A DNA stretch of 11,087 nt. Source: Nitrospinota bacterium (GTDB taxonomy: Bacteria > Nitrospinota > Nitrospinia > JACRGO01). The notes under the pieces are model-generated. The model ran no database searches, had not been told where the DNA came from, and was given only the letters and a program-made list of their open reading frames with translations. Positions 359-8,929 of this stretch are shown here, piece by piece. The translations under genes were made by a program, and so were the position numbers. The stretch spans positions 1-11,087 of the forward strand of contig JACRGO010000231.1 in NCBI GenBank assembly GCA_016212295.1. Reading direction: 5' to 3'. Positions within the stretch are counted from its first letter, which is position 1, and each line of letters begins with the position of its first letter.

Positions 359-2965
359 TTAAGGCAAATCCACGAATATGTAGCTCCCGGACCAGCTTCC
401 ATAAGACAGCGTTGATATCCCGTTTTGAGTGGAGGTTCCATAGGAAGGGAGGCCACCCTGAATTTCATAGACCACATTTCCCCCTGCCGCCATGGTTATT
501 CTTCCCGCGTGGACAGCGGCTGTGCAAACGGATGAATCATCCGTATAAGGGCCGATTCCCCATACGGTCCACGCTGTTCCGTTCTCAGGACAGATTCCCC
601 AGAATTTATCCCCGTTTCTTCCTCGATAGGATGCGGCGCTGGAACTCCAGCTTATCAGGCCCAACTGGGTTACGGTCACCTTATTCACCGCGGGGTCCGT
701 GAAGGTAAAGCTTGCGCCCCATGTTCCATAAGAATTGCTCGTTACGCCGTTCCTGGTTGTTGAAGCATAGGAGCTCATCCCTTCCTTTACAACAATAGTT
801 ATCCTTCCTCCATCGGCGTAGGTGATAAGGCCCATATGGACGGCAGCGCTGCATAGGGAAGAATCGGAAGTGTAGGTGTCGGTCCCCCAAAAAGTGGAAG
901 CAGCGCCTTTAGGAGGGCAAACGCCGGAATACTTGTTTCCATTATTTGCGCTATACGCAGACGCCGTTGTGGTCCAGGTGATATCTCCCATATCAAACGC
1001 GTCCGTACCCGCCGCCACGCCGAAATCTCCGGTGATCGTCACCACGTCCCCAGGCTTTCCGGATTTAGGTGAAAAGGTTATGGAGGAACTTGCCAGGGCG
1101 GACAGGGCCTTCCCTTTCTTGCCCTTTACCGTGAACTTGATTCCCTTTCTCTCAATCTTCATCTTCAAGTCGGAGCGTACGAAATCGCGGCCGAACCGGT
1201 CATAGAGATTGACCTTGGAGAAGTTGATCTCTCCATCCGCGGCCTTGCTTGCTACAACCTCGAATTTCAACACGCCTATCTGGGTGCGCTTATTGTTCAC
1301 CGGGGCCTTCCCCTTTTTCTTGTAGGCCAGTGAGACCACCGCCAAGCCCTTCTTGCGAAATTCCGCGCGCGCGTCAAAGTCCTTTTTCAATTTCTTGTCC
1401 AGGGTGAATTTGGACGCCTTCAATATCCTGGCCGGATACACAAGGCTGAATTCCGATGAGTTCATATCGTTAAGCGTGCTGACGTACAGAGGAACCTCTA
1501 TATAGCGTTTCGCCGATTTCGCGGATTGCGTGGCCGTTTCTAATTGACCATTGACGATTGACGATTGAGAATTGTCTTCCGCCGTCCGTCCTCCGTCTTC
1601 CGTCCTCTGCTCCAATTGAAAATTGTCAATTGACAATTGAAAATTGGCTTCCGTTCCCAAATCCACGATCCTGGTCTTCTGAAACACTTTAATGTCCTTT
1701 AAGGAAGGCCAATCCTTGTTCACCACGTAATAAAGGATCAGGCCCGCGTCGTTGGCCATGATGACGCTGTCACCGTCGATGTCGCCTCCAGCAAGAGGAC
1801 CTTCCCCCGGTTCGGCAAAACCCGTGGAGTACACGAAGGCATTAGAGGAATCATTGGCCTGGACCTTCGCGTCTCCGGTCACGTCCCCTTTGCGGTACTT
1901 GAGTTGGATCTTGAGCGCGCCGTCCGAGGTGTTAAGGGAGATGGCCTTGCCCTCAGGGGTCTTGACCGAGGACGGGAGCGTGGCATGGGCCTGGCCGTGG
2001 AATTTGAAGTCAGTGGTCTTGCCGTCCGAGGCGGAGTCCAGTATCTCGAAGACGACGTTGAACAGGGTCCCGACTCCCCGCAGGGGCTTATTTACCGCGT
2101 TCTTGACGGATATCTTCACCGTGCCTGCCGACGGCTCGGAGAATTCCCATTCGTACTCATAGGACAGGATGGTTTTGTCCACTGAGGAGGGTTTTAGTAT
2201 GGTGGAATCATAATCGATATAAATCTGCACCGCTCCCATTGTGAGTTTGTCGGCGTTCTCTATGTTCACCGGGACCTGGAGCGAGGCCGTGGCGCCCAGG
2301 GCCTTGCCTGTTCCCTTTTCCTGCGCCCCGTTCACGTTTGGTATCCACAGGGAGATGGTCCCGAACATGGCGGAGGCGGACTCGGACTTGTCGCTTTCCT
2401 TGCCGCCGTATGCGGCGCTCACCTTGTAATAATAGGTTGTGCCGATAACAAGGCTTGCGGACTCGTCCAGATAAAAGGCGTCGGTGACGCCGGATTGAAT
2501 AAGGGAATACGTGCCGCCTTCGCTGGAGGCCCGGTAAATATTGCAGCCGGAAATCCCTTCCGCTATGGGGGGTGTCCAGGAGACCTCGATATTTCCCACG
2601 GAGGACCGCGCCTTCACGTCAAAGGGGGCGGGAGTGGGTGTGATGACCTCGAAGTCCGCGGCGCTCAGCCTGAGACTGCCGTCCGAGGTCTCGACCGATA
2701 TTGGGCCAGTGGTCGCTCCCACCGGGACCTTGGCCTTGATTTCAGAAGTGGAACTCGACGCCACCTCCGCGGCAACGCCGTTGAACTTCACAATGGGATA
2801 AGTGGTTAAGGAGGAAGAGTTTTTTAGTTTGATTGGTCTGGTTGGTTCAATTGGTCCGGCGAGCAAAAGATTTCCAGCCCCGATCCCCCAAAGGCATAGT
2901 AAGGCCATGAAAATGGCAGGGACCAATATCAACTTTCCAAGTTTTTCACTGCATCTGATGCGCAT
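359..2965 (-). CDS. Secreted cohesin-dockerin scaffold protein with two C-terminal LCCL domains
   Basis: An 868-residue exported modular protein, probably extracellular or surface-associated. Visible in order: Sec signal peptide (about 1-36); C-terminal half of an IPT/TIG domain (56-105, core VKFNGVAAEV); FN3 domain (111-198); cohesin-like domain (about 205-345); dockerin with two calcium loops (Asp361/Thr363/Asp365/Asp372 and Asp395/Asp397/Asp399/Asp406); repeat-encoded linker (440-475); second cohesin-like domain (488-620); N-terminal half of a TIG domain (626-650, core SPKSGKPGDVVTITG); and two LCCL domains (about 657-757 and 765-868). Each LCCL copy has two Cys 22 residues apart (683/705 and 792/814) and the family signature SS-x-C-x-AAVH-x-G. 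The first ~650 residues parallel the gene just upstream, whose stop lies 30 bases away, so cotranscription is likely. The start is the ATG at 2965; no Shine-Dalgarno sequence precedes it. No sortase, PEP-CTERM or type IX signal is seen. Binding targets cannot be told from sequence. Confidence 0.88.
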   Translation of the reverse strand: MRIRCSEKLGKLILVPAIFMALLCLWGIGAGNLLLAGPIEPTRPIKLKNSSSLTTYPIVKFNGVAAEVASSSTSEIKAKVPVGATTGPISVETSDGSLRLSAADFEVITPTPAPFDVKARSSVGNIEVSWTPPIAEGISGCNIYRASSEGGTYSLIQSGVTDAFYLDESASLVIGTTYYYKVSAAYGGKESDKSESASAMFGTISLWIPNVNGAQEKGTGKALGATASLQVPVNIENADKLTMGAVQIYIDYDSTILKPSSVDKTILSYEYEWEFSEPSAGTVKISVKNAVNKPLRGVGTLFNVVFEILDSASDGKTTDFKFHGQAHATLPSSVKTPEGKAISLNTSDGALKIQLKYRKGDVTGDAKVQANDSSNAFVYSTGFAEPGEGPLAGGDIDGDSVIMANDAGLILYYVVNKDWPSLKDIKVFQKTRIVDLGTEANFQLSIDNFQLEQRTEDGGRTAEDNSQSSIVNGQLETATQSAKSAKRYIEVPLYVSTLNDMNSSEFSLVYPARILKASKFTLDKKLKKDFDARAEFRKKGLAVVSLAYKKKGKAPVNNKRTQIGVLKFEVVASKAADGEINFSKVNLYDRFGRDFVRSDLKMKIERKGIKFTVKGKKGKALSALASSSITFSPKSGKPGDVVTITGDFGVAAGTDAFDMGDITWTTTASAYSANNGNKYSGVCPPKGAASTFWGTDTYTSDSSLCSAAVHMGLITYADGGRITIVVKEGMSSYASTTRNGVTSNSYGTWGASFTFTDPAVNKVTVTQLGLISWSSSAASYRGRNGDKFWGICPENGTAWTVWGIGPYTDDSSVCTAAVHAGRITMAAGGNVVYEIQGGLPSYGTSTQNGISTLSYGSWSGSYIFVDLP
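1541..1647. repeat. In-frame cluster of three heptamer repeat families (linker of LCCL protein)
   Basis: Plus-strand reading shows consecutive 7-base units: an ATTGACN-like family (1541-1576), a TCCGTCN-like family (about 1577-1610) and a CAATTGA-like family (1612-1647). All lie inside the reading frame and encode residues about 440-475. Three heptamers equal seven codons, so the peptide repeats every seven residues (NFQLSID then NFQLE). Immediately left, 1511-1528 carries two 9-base units related to CGCGGATTG. The cluster sits between the dockerin and the second cohesin-like domain. Confidence 0.85.
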
Positions 2966-2995
2966 TATTTTTGTAGGAATTTAGTTGATGAATTA

Positions 2996-5900
2996 CTACG
3001 GGCCTGTCGTAAAACTCCATGCATAGCTGCTTGCCATCGCGTTCCCGGCCAAATCCTTTACCCCTGTTGTGACCGTGATTGTGTAAGCAGTGTTGGCGAA
3101 AAAGCCGGTTGTCGGCGTAAGGGTCGCGGTTGTGCCTGAGTAATTAATGGACATGCCTGGACCTGGACTTGAGGTAATAGTGGAAGTGGTAATGCTTGCC
3201 GGGTCCATTGCCTCTGAGAATATTATTGTAATGATGCCGCTGGCGCCGCCGCTTGGCACGCCAGTTGCCCCATTGGCGGGACTTACCGAACTTACAGTCG
3301 GCGGAATGGCGTCAGAGGTGGCGGAGGTTGTAAAACTCCATGCGTAACTGCTTGCCATTGCGTTCCCGGCCGCGTCCTTCACCCCGGTGGTGATTGTCGC
3401 GGTGTAGGTTGTATTCGGCGAAAGATTGGATGAGGGCGTGAAGGTGGCGGTCGCGCCGGAGTATGCCACCGAGCCGGTTACTCCGCCACTTACCGTGAAT
3501 GTGGATGTGGTAATGGTAGAGGAGTCCATTGTCTCGGAGAATGTCGCTGTGATTGATGTATTGGTTCCAACGCCTGTTGCCCCAAGGGCGGGACTTACCG
3601 AGTTTACATTGGGCGCCGTGGTGTCGCCTCCTCCCGCTGTCGTAAAACTCCATGAGTAGCTGCTTGCCATTGCGTTCCCGGCCGAATCCTTTACCCCTGT
3701 TGTGACAGTGATTGTGTAAGTAGTGCCGGCGAAAAAGCCGGTTGTCGGCGTAAGGGTCGCGGTTGTGCCTGAGTAATTAATAGACATGCCTGGGCCTGGG
3801 CTTGAGGTGATCGTGGAAGTGGTGATGCTTGCCGGGTCCATTGCCTCGGAGAATATGATGGTGATGATGCCGCTGGAAGATCCGCTAGGCACGCCCGTTG
3901 CCCCGGAGGCGGGACTTACCGAGCTTACAGTGGGCGCGGTCGTGTCGGTTCCTCCCGCTGTGGTAAAACTCCATGAGTAGCTGCTTGCCATTGCGTTACC
4001 AGCCGCGTCCTTCACCCCGGTGGTGATTGTCGCGGTGTAGGTTGTATTCGGTGAAAGATTTGATGAGGGCGTGAAGGTGGCGGTCTTGCCGGAGTATGCC
4101 ACCGAGCCGGTTACTCCTCCGCTTATCGTGAATGTTGATGCGGTAATTGTCGCGGAGTCCATTGACTCGGAGAATGTTGCTGTGATTGATGTGTTGGTTC
4201 CAACGCCTGCCGCTCCAAGGGCGGGACTTACCGAACTTACATTGGGCGCCGTGGTATCGCCTCCTCCCGCGGTTTTAAAATTCCATGAGTAGCTGTTTGG
4301 CAATGGATTTCCTGCGGAATCCCTTACCCCTGTCGTGACTGTAATGGTATAAACAGTGTTGGCGAAGAAACCGGTTGTCGGCGTAAGGGTTGCGGTTGTG
4401 CCTGAGTAATTAATGGACATGCCCGGACCAGGGCTTGAGGTGATAGTGGAAGTGGTGATGCTTGTAGGGTCCATTGCCTCGGAGAATATGATCGTGATGA
4501 TGCCGCTGGCGCCGCCGCTTGGCACGCCAGTTGCCCCATTGGCGGGACTTACCGAGCTTACAGCGGGCGCCGTGGAGTCGGCCCCTGCCCCTGTTTTAAA
4601 ACTCCATAAGTAGCTGCTTGCCATCGCGTTTCCCGCCGTGTCCTTTACCCCGGTGGTTATTGTCGCGGTGTAGGTTGTATTCGGCGATAGGGGCGCTGAT
4701 GGCTTGAATTTAGCGGTCACGCCGGAGTACGCCACCGAGCCGGTTACTCCTCCGCTTACCGTGAACGTGGCGGCGGTGATGGTCTTTGGGTCCATTGTTT
4801 TTGAAAATGTAGCGGTGACAGCGGTATTGGTTCCAACGCCTGTCGCCCCAAGGGCGGGGCTTACCGAGCTTACATTTGGCGCCGTTGCGCCTCCTCCCCC
4901 TGTTTTAAAATTTATCGAACCGCTTGCCGCCGGCGACACATTCCCCGCCGCGTCCCTGAACCACACATAAACCGTCTTCACTCCCTGTCCGCTGCTCAAG
5001 GTAAATGATACGCTTGCCGAATAGCTCGCCTCGGATGCAACAGGTTCCCATCCCGAAGCTCCTGCCGCCGGCGTTGTCGGCGTTTCCGACGCGTAATATC
5101 CGGTAACCCCTGCGTCATCAGTCGCCGATAGGGACAGGGTAACATTCGCTGATGTTGTGCTTGACGCGCCGCCGTTGATAAAGTTGGTGGATGTTGTGTT
5201 TTTCGGCGCGGTTGTATCCGCCGCGAAATTCCCCTGTATTGTAATTACATCCCCCACATTTCCCTTTTTAGGGGAAAAGGTGACGGTGGACGCCAGGGAG
5301 GCCGCATCAAAAGCCTTGCCTGTCCCGGCCTTTATCGTGAACTTGGCGCCCTTTTTCACAATGCTCATATTCAGGTCCGAACGGACGAAGTCCCGCCCGA
5401 ACCGGTCATAGAGATTGATACTGGAAAAACCTACCTCGCCTTTTGCCGTTTTGTTCGCCAGAACCTCGAATTTCAACGTTCCAAAGGCTGTGCGCTTGAA
5501 GCCGGCGGAGGCCCGGCCCTTCTTCTTGTACACCAGTGAAACCACGGCCAGGCCATTTCTCCGGAATTCCGTTCGCGCGTCGAACAATTTTTTGATGCCC
5601 TTGTCCGGCGTGAATTTTACCGCCTTTAATATACTTAAGGGATAGACAACTCCGAATTCCCCTGAATTCATGTCATTCAGCGTGCTGATATACAGTGGAA
5701 CTTCCAGGAATTGACGATTTACAATTGATGATTGGCGATTGACGATTGACAAGTTATTTCCGTCCTTCGTCTTTCGTCCTTCGTTCTCTTCTCCCTGCCC
5801 CCTGTCCCCTGCCCCCTGCTCCAATTGACCATTGACCAATGACCAATGACTACTTAGTTTTGAAACAAGCGTCTTTGTCCCCATATCCACGGTCCGTTCC

Positions 5901-7129
5901 TTTTGATAAACGTCGATATTTTCCAGGGACGGCCAGCCGTTGTTTACCACATAATATAGAATAAGGCCGGAATCGTTGGTCATTATGGATTTGTCTCCAT
6001 CAATATCCCCGCCTGCCAAGGGACCCGCCGCCGGCTCTATGATTCCCGCCGCATAGACAAAGGCGGATGAGGAGTCATTGGACCGCACCTTCGCGTCCCC
6101 GTTTACGTCCCCTTTGCGGTATTGTAACTGGATAGTCAACGCCCCGTTGCTCAGATTCAAGGGAATTTCCCTTCCCTCCGGAGACTTGATGAAAGAAGGG
6201 AGGGAATGATTTTTGTCATGGAAGGCGAAATTCACCGTTTGCCCTTCCTTCGCCGCGTCCAGGACTTCAAAGACGATATTAAAGAGGGCGCCCACGCCTC
6301 TAAGGGGCTTATTCACCGCCTGCTTGATATATATTTTAACGGTTCCGGGGGACGCCACGGCGATTTGCCAATCGTATTCCACTGAAAGGATCGTCTTTTC
6401 CACGCTGGAGGGTTTTAAAAAAGAGGCGTCGTAGTCGATATACAACTCCACCTCGCCCATTGTGAGTTTGTCGGCGTTCTCCACGTTGACAGGGACCAGG
6501 AGATTGGATTTGGAGCTCAGGGCCTTGGAGTCCTTTTTCTCTTGCGCGCCGTTCACGTTGGGAATCCATAGGGATATGGTCCCGAAAACAGCGGAAGCGG
6601 CCTCGGATTGGCCGCTTTCCTTGCCCTTGGCGTAAACCGCGCCGACTTTGTAAAAATAAGTCTCGCCGGACGCAAGGTCCTTCGATTCGTCCAGATAAAA
6701 TGTCTCCGTCACGCCGGACTTGATTTGGGCATAGGTCCCGTTTTCACTCGCGGAGCGGTAGATGTTATATCCTGTCAAATCCTCCGCTATCGGCGGACTC
6801 CACGAAATCTCGATGTTCTCCACGGAGGCCTTCGCGGTGACGCCGGTTGGCGCGGGGCTTTGGGATTCCACCTCGAAATCCTCCTCGCTGAATTGGACAG
6901 TCCCGCCTTCCGTTTCAACTGATATGGGGCCAGTGCTTGCGCCCAAAGGGACCCTGGCCTTGACCTCGGAATCTGAACTGGATAGGACCTCGGCGGCAAC
7001 GCCGTTGAACTTAACGACAGGGTAGCTCGCCGGACCGCCAGCGGCATAGCGGCTGAAGGCGGGGAAAAATGAATAAAGCAGGAAGCCGCCAAGAAGGAGA
7101 AGAAACGCGCTTGTTTTTCCGGCATTCAT
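2996..7129 (-). CDS. Giant secreted cohesin-dockerin protein with six SbsA-type Ig-like repeats
   Basis: A 1377-residue exported modular protein. Order: signal peptide (about 1-30); C-terminal half of a TIG domain (36-84); FN3 (88-180); cohesin-like (182-335); dockerin with calcium loops Asp341/Asn343/Asp345/Asp352 and Asp375/Asp377/Asp379/Asp386; repeat-encoded linker (427-474); second cohesin-like domain (475-605); N-terminal TIG half (614-636); an Ig-like segment (639-742); then six SbsA/Big_5-type Ig-like domains (743-1377) with the family's SVSP-x-x-GATGV opening and D-x-AGNAM-x-SSY ending. I chose the ATG at 7129 because GAGA lies 7 bases upstream; the frame can also open at a TTG at 7141, which lacks such a site. 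The gene follows the barrel gene by about 84 bases and precedes its paralogue by 30. It ends abruptly after the last Ig-like domain with no anchoring signal. Likely role, by inference: an elongated surface or extracellular adhesin or scaffold. Confidence 0.88.
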   Translation of the reverse strand: MNAGKTSAFLLLLGGFLLYSFFPAFSRYAAGGPASYPVVKFNGVAAEVLSSSDSEVKARVPLGASTGPISVETEGGTVQFSEEDFEVESQSPAPTGVTAKASVENIEISWSPPIAEDLTGYNIYRSASENGTYAQIKSGVTETFYLDESKDLASGETYFYKVGAVYAKGKESGQSEAASAVFGTISLWIPNVNGAQEKKDSKALSSKSNLLVPVNVENADKLTMGEVELYIDYDASFLKPSSVEKTILSVEYDWQIAVASPGTVKIYIKQAVNKPLRGVGALFNIVFEVLDAAKEGQTVNFAFHDKNHSLPSFIKSPEGREIPLNLSNGALTIQLQYRKGDVNGDAKVRSNDSSSAFVYAAGIIEPAAGPLAGGDIDGDKSIMTNDSGLILYYVVNNGWPSLENIDVYQKERTVDMGTKTLVSKLSSHWSLVNGQLEQGAGDRGQGEENEGRKTKDGNNLSIVNRQSSIVNRQFLEVPLYISTLNDMNSGEFGVVYPLSILKAVKFTPDKGIKKLFDARTEFRRNGLAVVSLVYKKKGRASAGFKRTAFGTLKFEVLANKTAKGEVGFSSINLYDRFGRDFVRSDLNMSIVKKGAKFTIKAGTGKAFDAASLASTVTFSPKKGNVGDVITIQGNFAADTTAPKNTTSTNFINGGASSTTSANVTLSLSATDDAGVTGYYASETPTTPAAGASGWEPVASEASYSASVSFTLSSGQGVKTVYVWFRDAAGNVSPAASGSINFKTGGGGATAPNVSSVSPALGATGVGTNTAVTATFSKTMDPKTITAATFTVSGGVTGSVAYSGVTAKFKPSAPLSPNTTYTATITTGVKDTAGNAMASSYLWSFKTGAGADSTAPAVSSVSPANGATGVPSGGASGIITIIFSEAMDPTSITTSTITSSPGPGMSINYSGTTATLTPTTGFFANTVYTITVTTGVRDSAGNPLPNSYSWNFKTAGGGDTTAPNVSSVSPALGAAGVGTNTSITATFSESMDSATITASTFTISGGVTGSVAYSGKTATFTPSSNLSPNTTYTATITTGVKDAAGNAMASSYSWSFTTAGGTDTTAPTVSSVSPASGATGVPSGSSSGIITIIFSEAMDPASITTSTITSSPGPGMSINYSGTTATLTPTTGFFAGTTYTITVTTGVKDSAGNAMASSYSWSFTTAGGGDTTAPNVNSVSPALGATGVGTNTSITATFSETMDSSTITTSTFTVSGGVTGSVAYSGATATFTPSSNLSPNTTYTATITTGVKDAAGNAMASSYAWSFTTSATSDAIPPTVSSVSPANGATGVPSGGASGIITIIFSEAMDPASITTSTITSSPGPGMSINYSGTTATLTPTTGFFANTAYTITVTTGVKDLAGNAMASSYAWSFTTGP
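2999..4905 (-). repeat. Three tandem copies of a ~633-base A-B double-Ig unit
   Basis: Six Ig-like domains alternate between type A (about 312 bases, GVGTNT and SGGVTGSVAYSG) and type B (321 bases, GASGIITIIFSEAMD and SSPGPGMSINYSG). The recurring TAAAA(C/T)T-type domain boundary falls at 3010, 3331, 3643, 3964, 4276, 4597 and 4906. The true period is therefore the A-B pair: 633, 633 and 630 bases. Type B copies are nearly identical at protein level; the outermost A copy (first in the protein) is the most diverged. The pattern implies duplication of a two-domain block. Confidence 0.9.
5709..5849. repeat. In-frame cluster of four heptamer repeat families (linker of giant protein)
   Basis: Successive 7-base arrays on the plus strand: GATTGAC-like, six units (5709-5750); CGTCCTT-like, about four units (5761-5788); CCCTGCC-like, four units (5793-5820); and CAATTGA/CCAATGA-like, four units (5822-5849). 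They encode a Gln/Asn/Gly/Glu-rich linker (residues about 427-474) including the heptapeptide repeat SIVNRQS. The position in the protein, between dockerin and second cohesin-like domain, matches the array at 1541-1647 in the neighbouring paralogue, and the families occur in the same order. Confidence 0.88.
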
Positions 7130-7213: not shown

Positions 7214-8611
7214 TTAAAAATGTACAATGGCGGAAAGCAGGAAGATATGCTGCCGGACGTCCGCCGAGGCGTTCTCCACCTCTATATTGTCCTTTTCCAC
7301 GCGGTTCCCGAAGCGGAACTGCCAGGCTGCGTCCACCACTACATTCCCGAACATCCAGCCTGTGCCCAGGCCGACCCCATAAAAGGCCTCGTTTGAATTC
7401 GTGGCAGGCTCCGGGTCAATAAAAAATCCTCCGCGGAAAGGGATGATTGTCCTGTATTTAATCCATAAATATTCCGCTCCGAACCGGAACTGGTTCGTGG
7501 CTGATATGCCGGAGCCTCCCAGCTCCCCGCCGTTCACCGGACTGGTAACATTGCCTTGCCCGTCCCGCATTGCGAATTTCTTCCACTCGGTGCGGTACGC
7601 GTCGAAGGAGACCGTTAACTCATCGGAAAAACGGCAGGCGGCGCCAAGGCCGTAGGAATCCGGGAACCGGAGGGAAAAACTTTCGTCAAATGAGGCCTGG
7701 CCCTGTGTGTCCAGCCAGGGCGAATCAGGATATTCCACGCGGCTTTCATAAAAAAAATCGTGCCTCCCTTTCAGCTTAAAGGCTGTCTTGTATACAGCGC
7801 CTATGGTGATTCTGTCCGTGATATTCCATAAAAACCCCGCGTTAAGGTTCTGGCCCCAAAGATCATGGTAGCGGTTCTTGATGGCGGCGCGGCTGCTGAA
7901 TGGATCGCCCGCGAGGCTTCCTGTTCCGGTGGATTCATACCGGTTTTCCCATCCCCTGTTGACCCCTGCCTGGCGTGGATAGAGATTCAGCGTAAAGCCA
8001 AGGGAAATTTCCGGGGCCAGTTGAAGGCAAAAGGCGGGGGACAGGGAATTTATGCTTCCATGCTGCTTGAAATCGATGTTTCTGTCAAAGTTGAAATCGA
8101 ATCCAGGCGCGAGGGATTGCCTTAAGTTGTAATCAAAATTAATATTGGAATCAAGGCTGTACAGATTCTGGTGGTTGAGGGAAAAGGCCATGTTTTTTTC
8201 CAGAAACCGGAAGGGCAGGGCAAGGCTGAAATAATTTATTTCCGAAGTGGACACAGGATTTCCCCCTTGCGCCTCCGGGTGCGCCGGGGAGGAGAACCAG
8301 GCGCCAAGCCTGTTGCGGGAAAGGACCATTGACGCCTCCGCGGTTTCCAACTGGATCAGTCCACCAGGGTTCCACGACGCGGCGGTGGCGTCGTCCGCCA
8401 CGGCGATAAAGGCGCCTCCCATTCCCATGGCCCTGGCGCCGGACCCCACGGGATTAGGGGAAGACGCGATCCGCACCTGCTGAAAGATGGTGGCGTCGCT
8501 GAAGGCGTAAGCCGCGTTGGAAAGAGAGGACAGGAACGGAAAAAGACACAGCCAGGAGAAACGGATTATTAAAGAATGAACATCGAACATTGAACATCGA
8601 ACGTCGAACAT
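7214..8611 (-). CDS. OmpP1/FadL-like outer-membrane beta-barrel protein
   Basis: A 465-residue predicted outer-membrane barrel. A hydrophobic signal peptide (about residues 14-36) ends in AYA, giving likely cleavage before FSDA. The mature N terminus carries the motif SGARAMGMGGAFIAVADDA followed by WNPGGL, typical of the OmpP1/FadL/TodX superfamily and its PorV-like relatives. The rest alternates amphipathic strands rich in aromatic residues, and the chain ends IVHF with the terminal Phe expected for BAM-dependent insertion. FadL relatives import hydrophobic compounds, while PorV acts in type IX export; the sequence does not choose between these. The only in-frame ATGs ahead of the signal peptide (8611 and 8590) both lie in a heptamer array, and neither has a Shine-Dalgarno sequence, so the first 13 residues are repeat-encoded. 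It precedes the two cohesin-dockerin genes and may be cotranscribed with them. Confidence 0.87.
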   Translation of the reverse strand: MFDVRCSMFDVHSLIIRFSWLCLFPFLSSLSNAAYAFSDATIFQQVRIASSPNPVGSGARAMGMGGAFIAVADDATAASWNPGGLIQLETAEASMVLSRNRLGAWFSSPAHPEAQGGNPVSTSEINYFSLALPFRFLEKNMAFSLNHQNLYSLDSNINFDYNLRQSLAPGFDFNFDRNIDFKQHGSINSLSPAFCLQLAPEISLGFTLNLYPRQAGVNRGWENRYESTGTGSLAGDPFSSRAAIKNRYHDLWGQNLNAGFLWNITDRITIGAVYKTAFKLKGRHDFFYESRVEYPDSPWLDTQGQASFDESFSLRFPDSYGLGAACRFSDELTVSFDAYRTEWKKFAMRDGQGNVTSPVNGGELGGSGISATNQFRFGAEYLWIKYRTIIPFRGGFFIDPEPATNSNEAFYGVGLGTGWMFGNVVVDAAWQFRFGNRVEKDNIEVENASADVRQHIFLLSAIVHF

Positions 8612-8616
8612 TGAAC
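8575..8616. repeat. Six-unit heptamer array overlapping the barrel start codon
   Basis: Six 7-base units of the form ATYGAAC run from 8575 to 8616 with only single-base variation. Read on the minus strand they encode MFDVRCS then MFDV, a seven-residue period. They contain both candidate ATG starts (8611 and 8590) of the barrel gene. Confidence 0.88.
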
Positions 8617-8626
8617 GCCTTTTTTA

Positions 8627-8661
8627 TTTTGGATTTCGTAATGCGGATTTAAAATCCAAAA
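8627..8661. repeat. Perfect 10-bp inverted repeat in the intergenic region
   Basis: TTTTGGATTT (8627-8636) is exactly complementary to AAATCCAAAA (8652-8661), with a 15-base loop, just upstream of the barrel start. It could be a transcript hairpin or an operator-like site; no regulator is encoded nearby. The rest of 8612-8926 holds the other repeats listed here and no gene that I can support. Confidence 0.5.
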
Positions 8662-8675
8662 AAGATTATTTGCCT

Positions 8676-8734
8676 CACACGAAGGCACAAAGGCACAAAG
8701 GTTTTTTTCTTTGTGGTCTCAGCGCCTTTGTGTG
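8676..8734. repeat. Octamer-built large inverted repeat (hairpin)
   Basis: The left arm (8676-8700) consists of 8-base units related to GCACAAAG. After G and seven T residues, the right arm (8709-8734) pairs back: an 11-bp outer stem (CACACGAAGGC with GCCTTTGTGTG, one G-T pair), an internal loop, and a 7-bp inner stem (CACAAAG/CTTTGTG). The form is that of a dispersed palindromic intergenic element. It lies between the lipoprotein and barrel genes and could reduce read-through. Confidence 0.7.
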
Positions 8735-8811
8735 ATATAAATCCTTCAATTTTTAGCGCTATATTACAACCAAGAGAGGCAAAAGTAAATGAGCAAAACC
8801 ACTGAAATTAA

Positions 8812-8846
8812 TTTTAGATTTGCGATTTTAGATTTCAGATTTCAAG
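8812..8846. repeat. Five-unit TTTYAGA heptamer array
   Basis: Five contiguous 7-base units (TTTTAGA, TTTGCGA, TTTTAGA, TTTCAGA, TTTCAAG) lie between the lipoprotein and barrel genes. They belong to the same 7-base class as the other arrays but form a different sequence family. Confidence 0.75.
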
Positions 8847-8864
8847 TTTAAAGTGACTAAAGTT

Positions 8865-8877
8865 GCGGCGAAGCCGC
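8865..8877. repeat. GC-rich 5-bp hairpin after the lipoprotein gene
   Basis: GCGGC (8865-8869) and GCCGC (8873-8877) pair around a 3-base loop, about 50 bases beyond the lipoprotein stop. On the minus strand only a broken T-rich stretch follows, so termination is possible but weak. Confidence 0.35.
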
Positions 8878-8882
8878 GCCAT

Positions 8883-8929
8883 GCCTCTGTGCCTTTGTGC
8901 CTTTTATCCTTCGCCTTTCGCCCTTCTCA
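8883..8929. repeat. Octamer and heptamer units running into the lipoprotein stop codon
   Basis: GCCTCTGT and GCCTTTGT (8883-8898) belong to the same octamer family as 8676-8734. They are followed by heptamers CTTCGCC, TTTCGCC and CTTCTCA (8909-8929). The last unit contains the TGA stop of the lipoprotein gene (8927-8929 on the minus strand). Confidence 0.65.

Follow-up and report, generated by a model that had tools for sequence, protein, structure and literature searches.

The window, that is, the whole 11,087-nucleotide stretch of DNA analysed here, corresponds to an entire contig (G000:C191) of a draft Nitrospinota genome comprising 237 contigs and 3.74 Mb. It carries two large minus-strand genes, encoding proteins that we call A and B, which have a block of domains in common and continue into different C-terminal modules. 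In the following list of their features, strand names within the TIG fold are assigned by homology, and the piece containing strands A and B is termed the N-half and that containing strands C to G the C-half.

359..2965, minus strand: protein B, 868 aa, consisting of signal peptide, TIG C-half, fn3, cohesin, dockerin, second cohesin-like domain, TIG N-half and two LCCL domains
2639..2800, minus strand: TIG C-half of B (strands C to G), aa 56-109, shortly past the signal peptide, from profiles
2381..2629, minus strand: fn3 domain of B, aa 113-195, from Pfam
1985..2284, minus strand: cohesin domain 1 of B, from Pfam Cohesin
1700..1888, minus strand: dockerin-type duplicated calcium-loop module of B, aa 360-422, from sequence motifs, the match of the family profile to dockerin structures and Pfam Dockerin_1 in paralogues
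1543..1650, minus strand: in-frame short-word repeat insert of B (ATTGACnATTG words) in the linker between dockerin and cohesin 2
1130..1504, minus strand: second cohesin-like domain of B, about aa 488-612, from the paralogue alignment and a second Pfam cohesin match in the paralogues C214 and C223
1022..1090, minus strand: TIG N-half of B (A-B hairpin), aa 626-648, SSSITFSPKSGKPGDVVTITGDF, from profiles and shuffles
365..955, minus strand: two LCCL domains, the variable C-terminal module of B, from Pfam (E 1.3e-36)
2996..7129, minus strand: protein A, 1377 aa, with the block common to B followed by six Big_5 repeats
6863..7024, minus strand: TIG C-half of A, aa 36-89, from profiles
6596..6853, minus strand: fn3 domain of A, aa 93-178, from Pfam
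6233..6508, minus strand: cohesin domain 1 of A, from Pfam Cohesin
5927..6112, minus strand: dockerin-type module of A, aa 340-401, from sequence motifs and the match of the family profile to dockerin structures
5711..5850, minus strand: in-frame short-word repeat insert of A in the linker between dockerin and cohesin 2
5336..5710, minus strand: second cohesin-like domain of A, about aa 474-598, from the paralogue alignment
5225..5293, minus strand: TIG N-half of A, aa 613-635, ASTVTFSPKKGNVGDVITIQGNF, from profiles and shuffles
2996..4910, minus strand: six Big_5 Ig-like repeats, the variable C-terminal module of A, from Pfam

Both proteins begin with a signal-peptide-like stretch, as judged by eye rather than by a predictor, and the two TIG pieces are separated by 516 residues in B and 523 in A. 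Cohesin scores above the Pfam cut-off in both A and B, whereas Dockerin_1 does so only in the paralogue C214, the assignment elsewhere being backed by dockerin structures that match the family profile. LCCL is a domain known best from animal proteins. The Big_5 repeats of A (2996-4910) form a 321-bp tandem array, in which two repeat types alternate according to the translation.

Examination of the sequence alone had proposed that each protein starts, after the signal peptide, with the second part of a TIG domain and reaches the first part only about 520 residues later; the positions and the spacing proved right, and the presence of a split TIG with its halves in reversed order in A and B is confirmed. 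The Pfam TIG match at the start of B covers profile positions 30-82 only. A local HMM was built on six complete TIG domains of this genome, all of them outside the split family. It aligned the short segment to profile positions 2-23 and the long segment to approximately 29-83, without overlap, in 7/7 proteins (A, B and five paralogues). In each of the seven, the score of the short half was reached by none of 1000 composition shuffles of the surrounding region. Searching the genome with a profile of the short half recovered its own eight source sequences and, as the next matches, the N-terminal halves of complete TIGs.

The same reading held that one normal TIG domain would result if the block's end were connected to its start, and this is borne out by the Pfam scores, the PDB profile match and the local HMM positions. 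As isolated pieces, the halves score low against Pfam TIG (B N-half 13.8, B C-half 16.3 and A C-half 17.5 bits), whereas the rejoined N- and C-halves exceed the Pfam cut-off of 20.9 bits in five of the seven proteins, at 26.6-31.1 bits. The N-halves of C211 and C214 are weak, reaching 12.4 and 10.9 bits, respectively, in isolation with the local HMM and gaining little under Pfam, yet the local HMM still positions both correctly. In a PDB search, a profile of the rejoined halves matched the IPT/TIG-type domains of CGTase and amylase structures (best E 1.4e-4), whereas the profile of either half alone matched no TIG structure and a native-order profile (C-half, then N-half) matched nothing. The whole-domain IPT/TIG profile (PF01833) thus recognises these proteins only after rejoining (5/7 by Pfam; 7/7 by the local HMM), and the contiguous strand order of the family is absent, the halves being reversed and about 520 residues apart. 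A TIG-like appearance arising by chance was also considered, and is ruled out by the shuffles together with the differing results of the rejoined-order and native-order profiles.

Both halves occur in seven genes of this genome, namely those for A and B and further genes on contigs C18, C156, C211, C214 and C34, and each gene with a C-half also carries an N-half. The modules that follow the short half comprise two LCCL domains in B, six Big_5 domains in A, CHB_HEX_C in C18, an FGE-sulfatase domain in C156, Lcl_C in C34, repeats lacking a Pfam match above the cut-off in C211 and a stretch with no assigned domain in C214. Since each member continues with a different module at this point, the short half constitutes a fixed edge that carries exchangeable modules. 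It is also an island of conservation: its P..G..G core and hydrophobic pattern are retained across paralogues that are 38-62% identical to B, while the preceding linkers vary in both length and sequence (about 80 residues separate cohesin 2 from the hairpin in C211) and everything behind it differs. An isolated cohesin fragment of the split-TIG family lies on contig C37 (L029:5885-6013) and is apparently a pseudogene remnant.

Two divergent paralogues, C223b and C172b, offer a view of how this arrangement may have arisen. In both, a complete TIG directly precedes the fn3-cohesin-dockerin-cohesin block, no TIG piece lies behind the last cohesin and the protein ends shortly after it. These are relatives with the unpermuted order, and a complete TIG ahead of fn3 in both argues that the split order is derived, that is, a circular permutation. 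The older order thus looks to have been TIG-fn3-cohesin-dockerin-cohesin, the split family having transferred the first hairpin from the front of the block to its rear, and the earlier suggestion that the ancestral unit was cut inside TIG fits these two proteins. The textbook route to circular permutation is duplication followed by trimming of both ends. Homologues with several complete units in tandem, for which the sequence-only reading had advised a search, did not turn up: neither this genome nor the 77 phylum genomes searched contained such an intermediate. A literature search, in which subscription journals were thinly covered, found no paper combining circular permutation with IPT/TIG.

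Whether the halves also complement each other, as had been proposed, is a separate matter, on which two rearranged paralogues bear. In C34 (L026:6879-7895, minus strand), the fn3-cohesin-dockerin-cohesin block has been deleted and both halves are kept about 22 residues apart, with Lcl_C behind them; remnants of both the beginning of the cohesin (NGAREKGKAL) and the end linker are still visible at the junction. When C34 is compared with B, its N-half shows 10 synonymous and 3 non-synonymous substitutions, giving an omega of 0.055; omega is 0.21 for the C-half, against 0.46 for the entire N-terminal region including signal peptide and spacer. That C34 lost the block yet kept both halves at low dN/dS argues that the halves belong together, as free drift would be expected to produce more amino-acid change; however, B and C34 are close paralogues, and the low dN/dS may therefore partly predate the deletion. 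C156b (L023:4493-5512), in contrast, consists of a signal peptide, an RCC1 piece, half of an fn3 domain, cohesin 2 and a TIG N-half that ends three residues ahead of the stop codon, the TIG C-half having been lost. Its cohesin 2 is not decayed, being 52-62% identical to its relatives with the exception of C214, and an N-half lacking a C-half would fit either use in trans or a recent loss or rearrangement. Complementation is partly and indirectly supported by joint retention and low dN/dS in C34; C156b speaks against exclusive pairing. AlphaFold models were of low confidence, with a mean pLDDT of 36.0 for the B block alone with no alignment and 34.8 for B together with A, using input sequences from the window only; in the model with the better of the two alignments, the C-terminal hairpin was left unstructured.

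In Ig-like folds, a C-G piece without strands A and B would have an exposed core. We infer that the halves pair, that they do so within one chain, and that the proteins are surface or matrix scaffolds. Our main reading, to which we assign a probability of about 0.5, is that the C-terminal hairpin packs against the C-half at the N-terminus of the same molecule, thereby closing the block as a ring or clasp. The mature protein would start at TIG strand C, and strands A and B would return after fn3-cohesin-dockerin-cohesin; docking of the A-B hairpin on the C-G part of the same chain would then yield one complete TIG domain, so that the intervening domains form a clasped loop whose base bears the exchangeable C-terminal module. 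If the halves do pair, this would be a naturally occurring circular permutation of an Ig-like domain, in which four domains separate the former termini and which has been retained across a set of module-swapping paralogues. It would also be a new way for a secreted scaffold to be closed or chained, and a possible source of split-Ig tags. With its halves only about 22 residues apart, C34 makes the pairing question testable on one small protein.

The alternative that survives best, although we regard it as unlikely, is pairing between molecules: as in donor-strand complementation, each protein would supply its A-B hairpin to the C-G part of its neighbour, giving homo- or heteropolymers joined head to tail. 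In its favour, the acceptor half lies at the free mature N-terminus, both halves are common to all seven paralogues, so that mixed chains are possible, and C156b, with an N-half and no C-half, has the form expected of a chain end. Against it, the spacing of about 22 residues in C34 is sufficient for self-closure, and the donors of known donor-strand systems are usually single terminal strands rather than mid-chain hairpins of two strands. A doubtful extension of such coupling is that the seven paralogues, with their different modules, mix and polymerise head to tail into a mosaic surface fibre, in addition to their cohesin-dockerin contacts. Filaments of Ig-like units linked by donor strands are known, and precedent exists for both modes of pairing: TasA is described as self-complementing when monomeric and as complementing the adjacent subunit when in filaments (PMC9715654).

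We also consider it improbable that the two pieces are leftovers of shuffling, namely unpaired remains of two TIGs, one before and one behind the block, each of them truncated, with the hairpin serving merely as a fusion site for new modules. All variable modules do begin right behind the hairpin, and the nearest complete TIG differs between the halves (C223b for the C-half, C159 for the N-half), a comparison of little power. Such an origin would nevertheless require that both truncations happened to hit a single loop of the fold, and it sits poorly with the conservation of the short half between unconserved flanks and with its low dN/dS between C34 and B. Finally, it is very improbable that the hairpin belongs structurally to cohesin 2 or to the following module and resembles TIG strands A and B by convergence: it does lie close behind the second cohesin in most members and is kept together with it in C156b, but C34 retains it without any cohesin, the linker of C211 sets the two far apart, the following modules are mutually unrelated and the hairpin matches TIG positions 2-23 in all seven proteins.

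When compared with known systems, the A/B family resembles RTX adhesins in that other domains interrupt an Ig-like domain, whose two pieces flank the inserted unit (PMC12077191, PMC10865825). In the RTX adhesins, however, the Ig-like split domain follows the order N-half, insert (a ligand-binding domain), C-half (PMC12077191), whereas the A/B family shows the reversed order of C-half, block and N-half, with the variable module outside the block. Donor-strand filaments such as chaperone-usher pili, archaeal threads and TasA likewise combine an incomplete Ig-like fold with a distant beta segment (PMC9715654); in A and B, what the incomplete fold lacks is a hairpin of two strands located about 500 residues further downstream, and a cohesin and a dockerin are present. 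By the features tested, the family is a member of neither group, and it would work like RTX split domains or donor-strand filaments if its halves pair. Its agreement with complete IPT/TIG domains (PF01833; CGTase/amylase chains 1cyg and 1qho) extends to the profile and key residues of both halves, the difference being their permuted order. Cohesin and dockerin are likewise recognisable by profile (nearest solved structures 2xdh and 5nrm, respectively), while the A/B proteins differ from cohesin/dockerin proteins in combining a cohesin, a dockerin, a second cohesin and a permuted TIG in one chain; no cellulase module was seen in the family.

Beyond this genome, the cohesin block had no match among 77 Nitrospinota genomes, one of which belongs to the same genus; these genomes gave fn3-like matches only. 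Scans of GTDB r220 returned nothing but one 21-residue cohesin stretch on a Phycisphaerales contig, and no match was found among IMG/VR viral contigs. As pattern scans perform best at close relatives, more distant relatives may exist.

The inserts in the linker between dockerin and cohesin 2 belong to a wider set of short-word repeats. For words of the ATTGACnATTG type, the window contains 17 near-matches where 0.63 would be expected. Exact matches to the longer word ATTGACNATTGACNATTG number 20 in this genome (2 of them in the window), 18 in genome G008 and none in the same-genus genome. At the same place in the paralogues, the linker contains other short words. The intergenic region at 8577-8900 consists of a variety of short-word repeats, among them GAACATC and ATTTTAGATTTCAG, which are similar in kind to the linker inserts of A and B. 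A short open reading frame at 83-310 on the plus strand is apparently truncated and ends in VYNTVTIGIQAWMKENLYVLLP, which we take to resemble the start of a Fibrobacter-type major paralogous surface domain.
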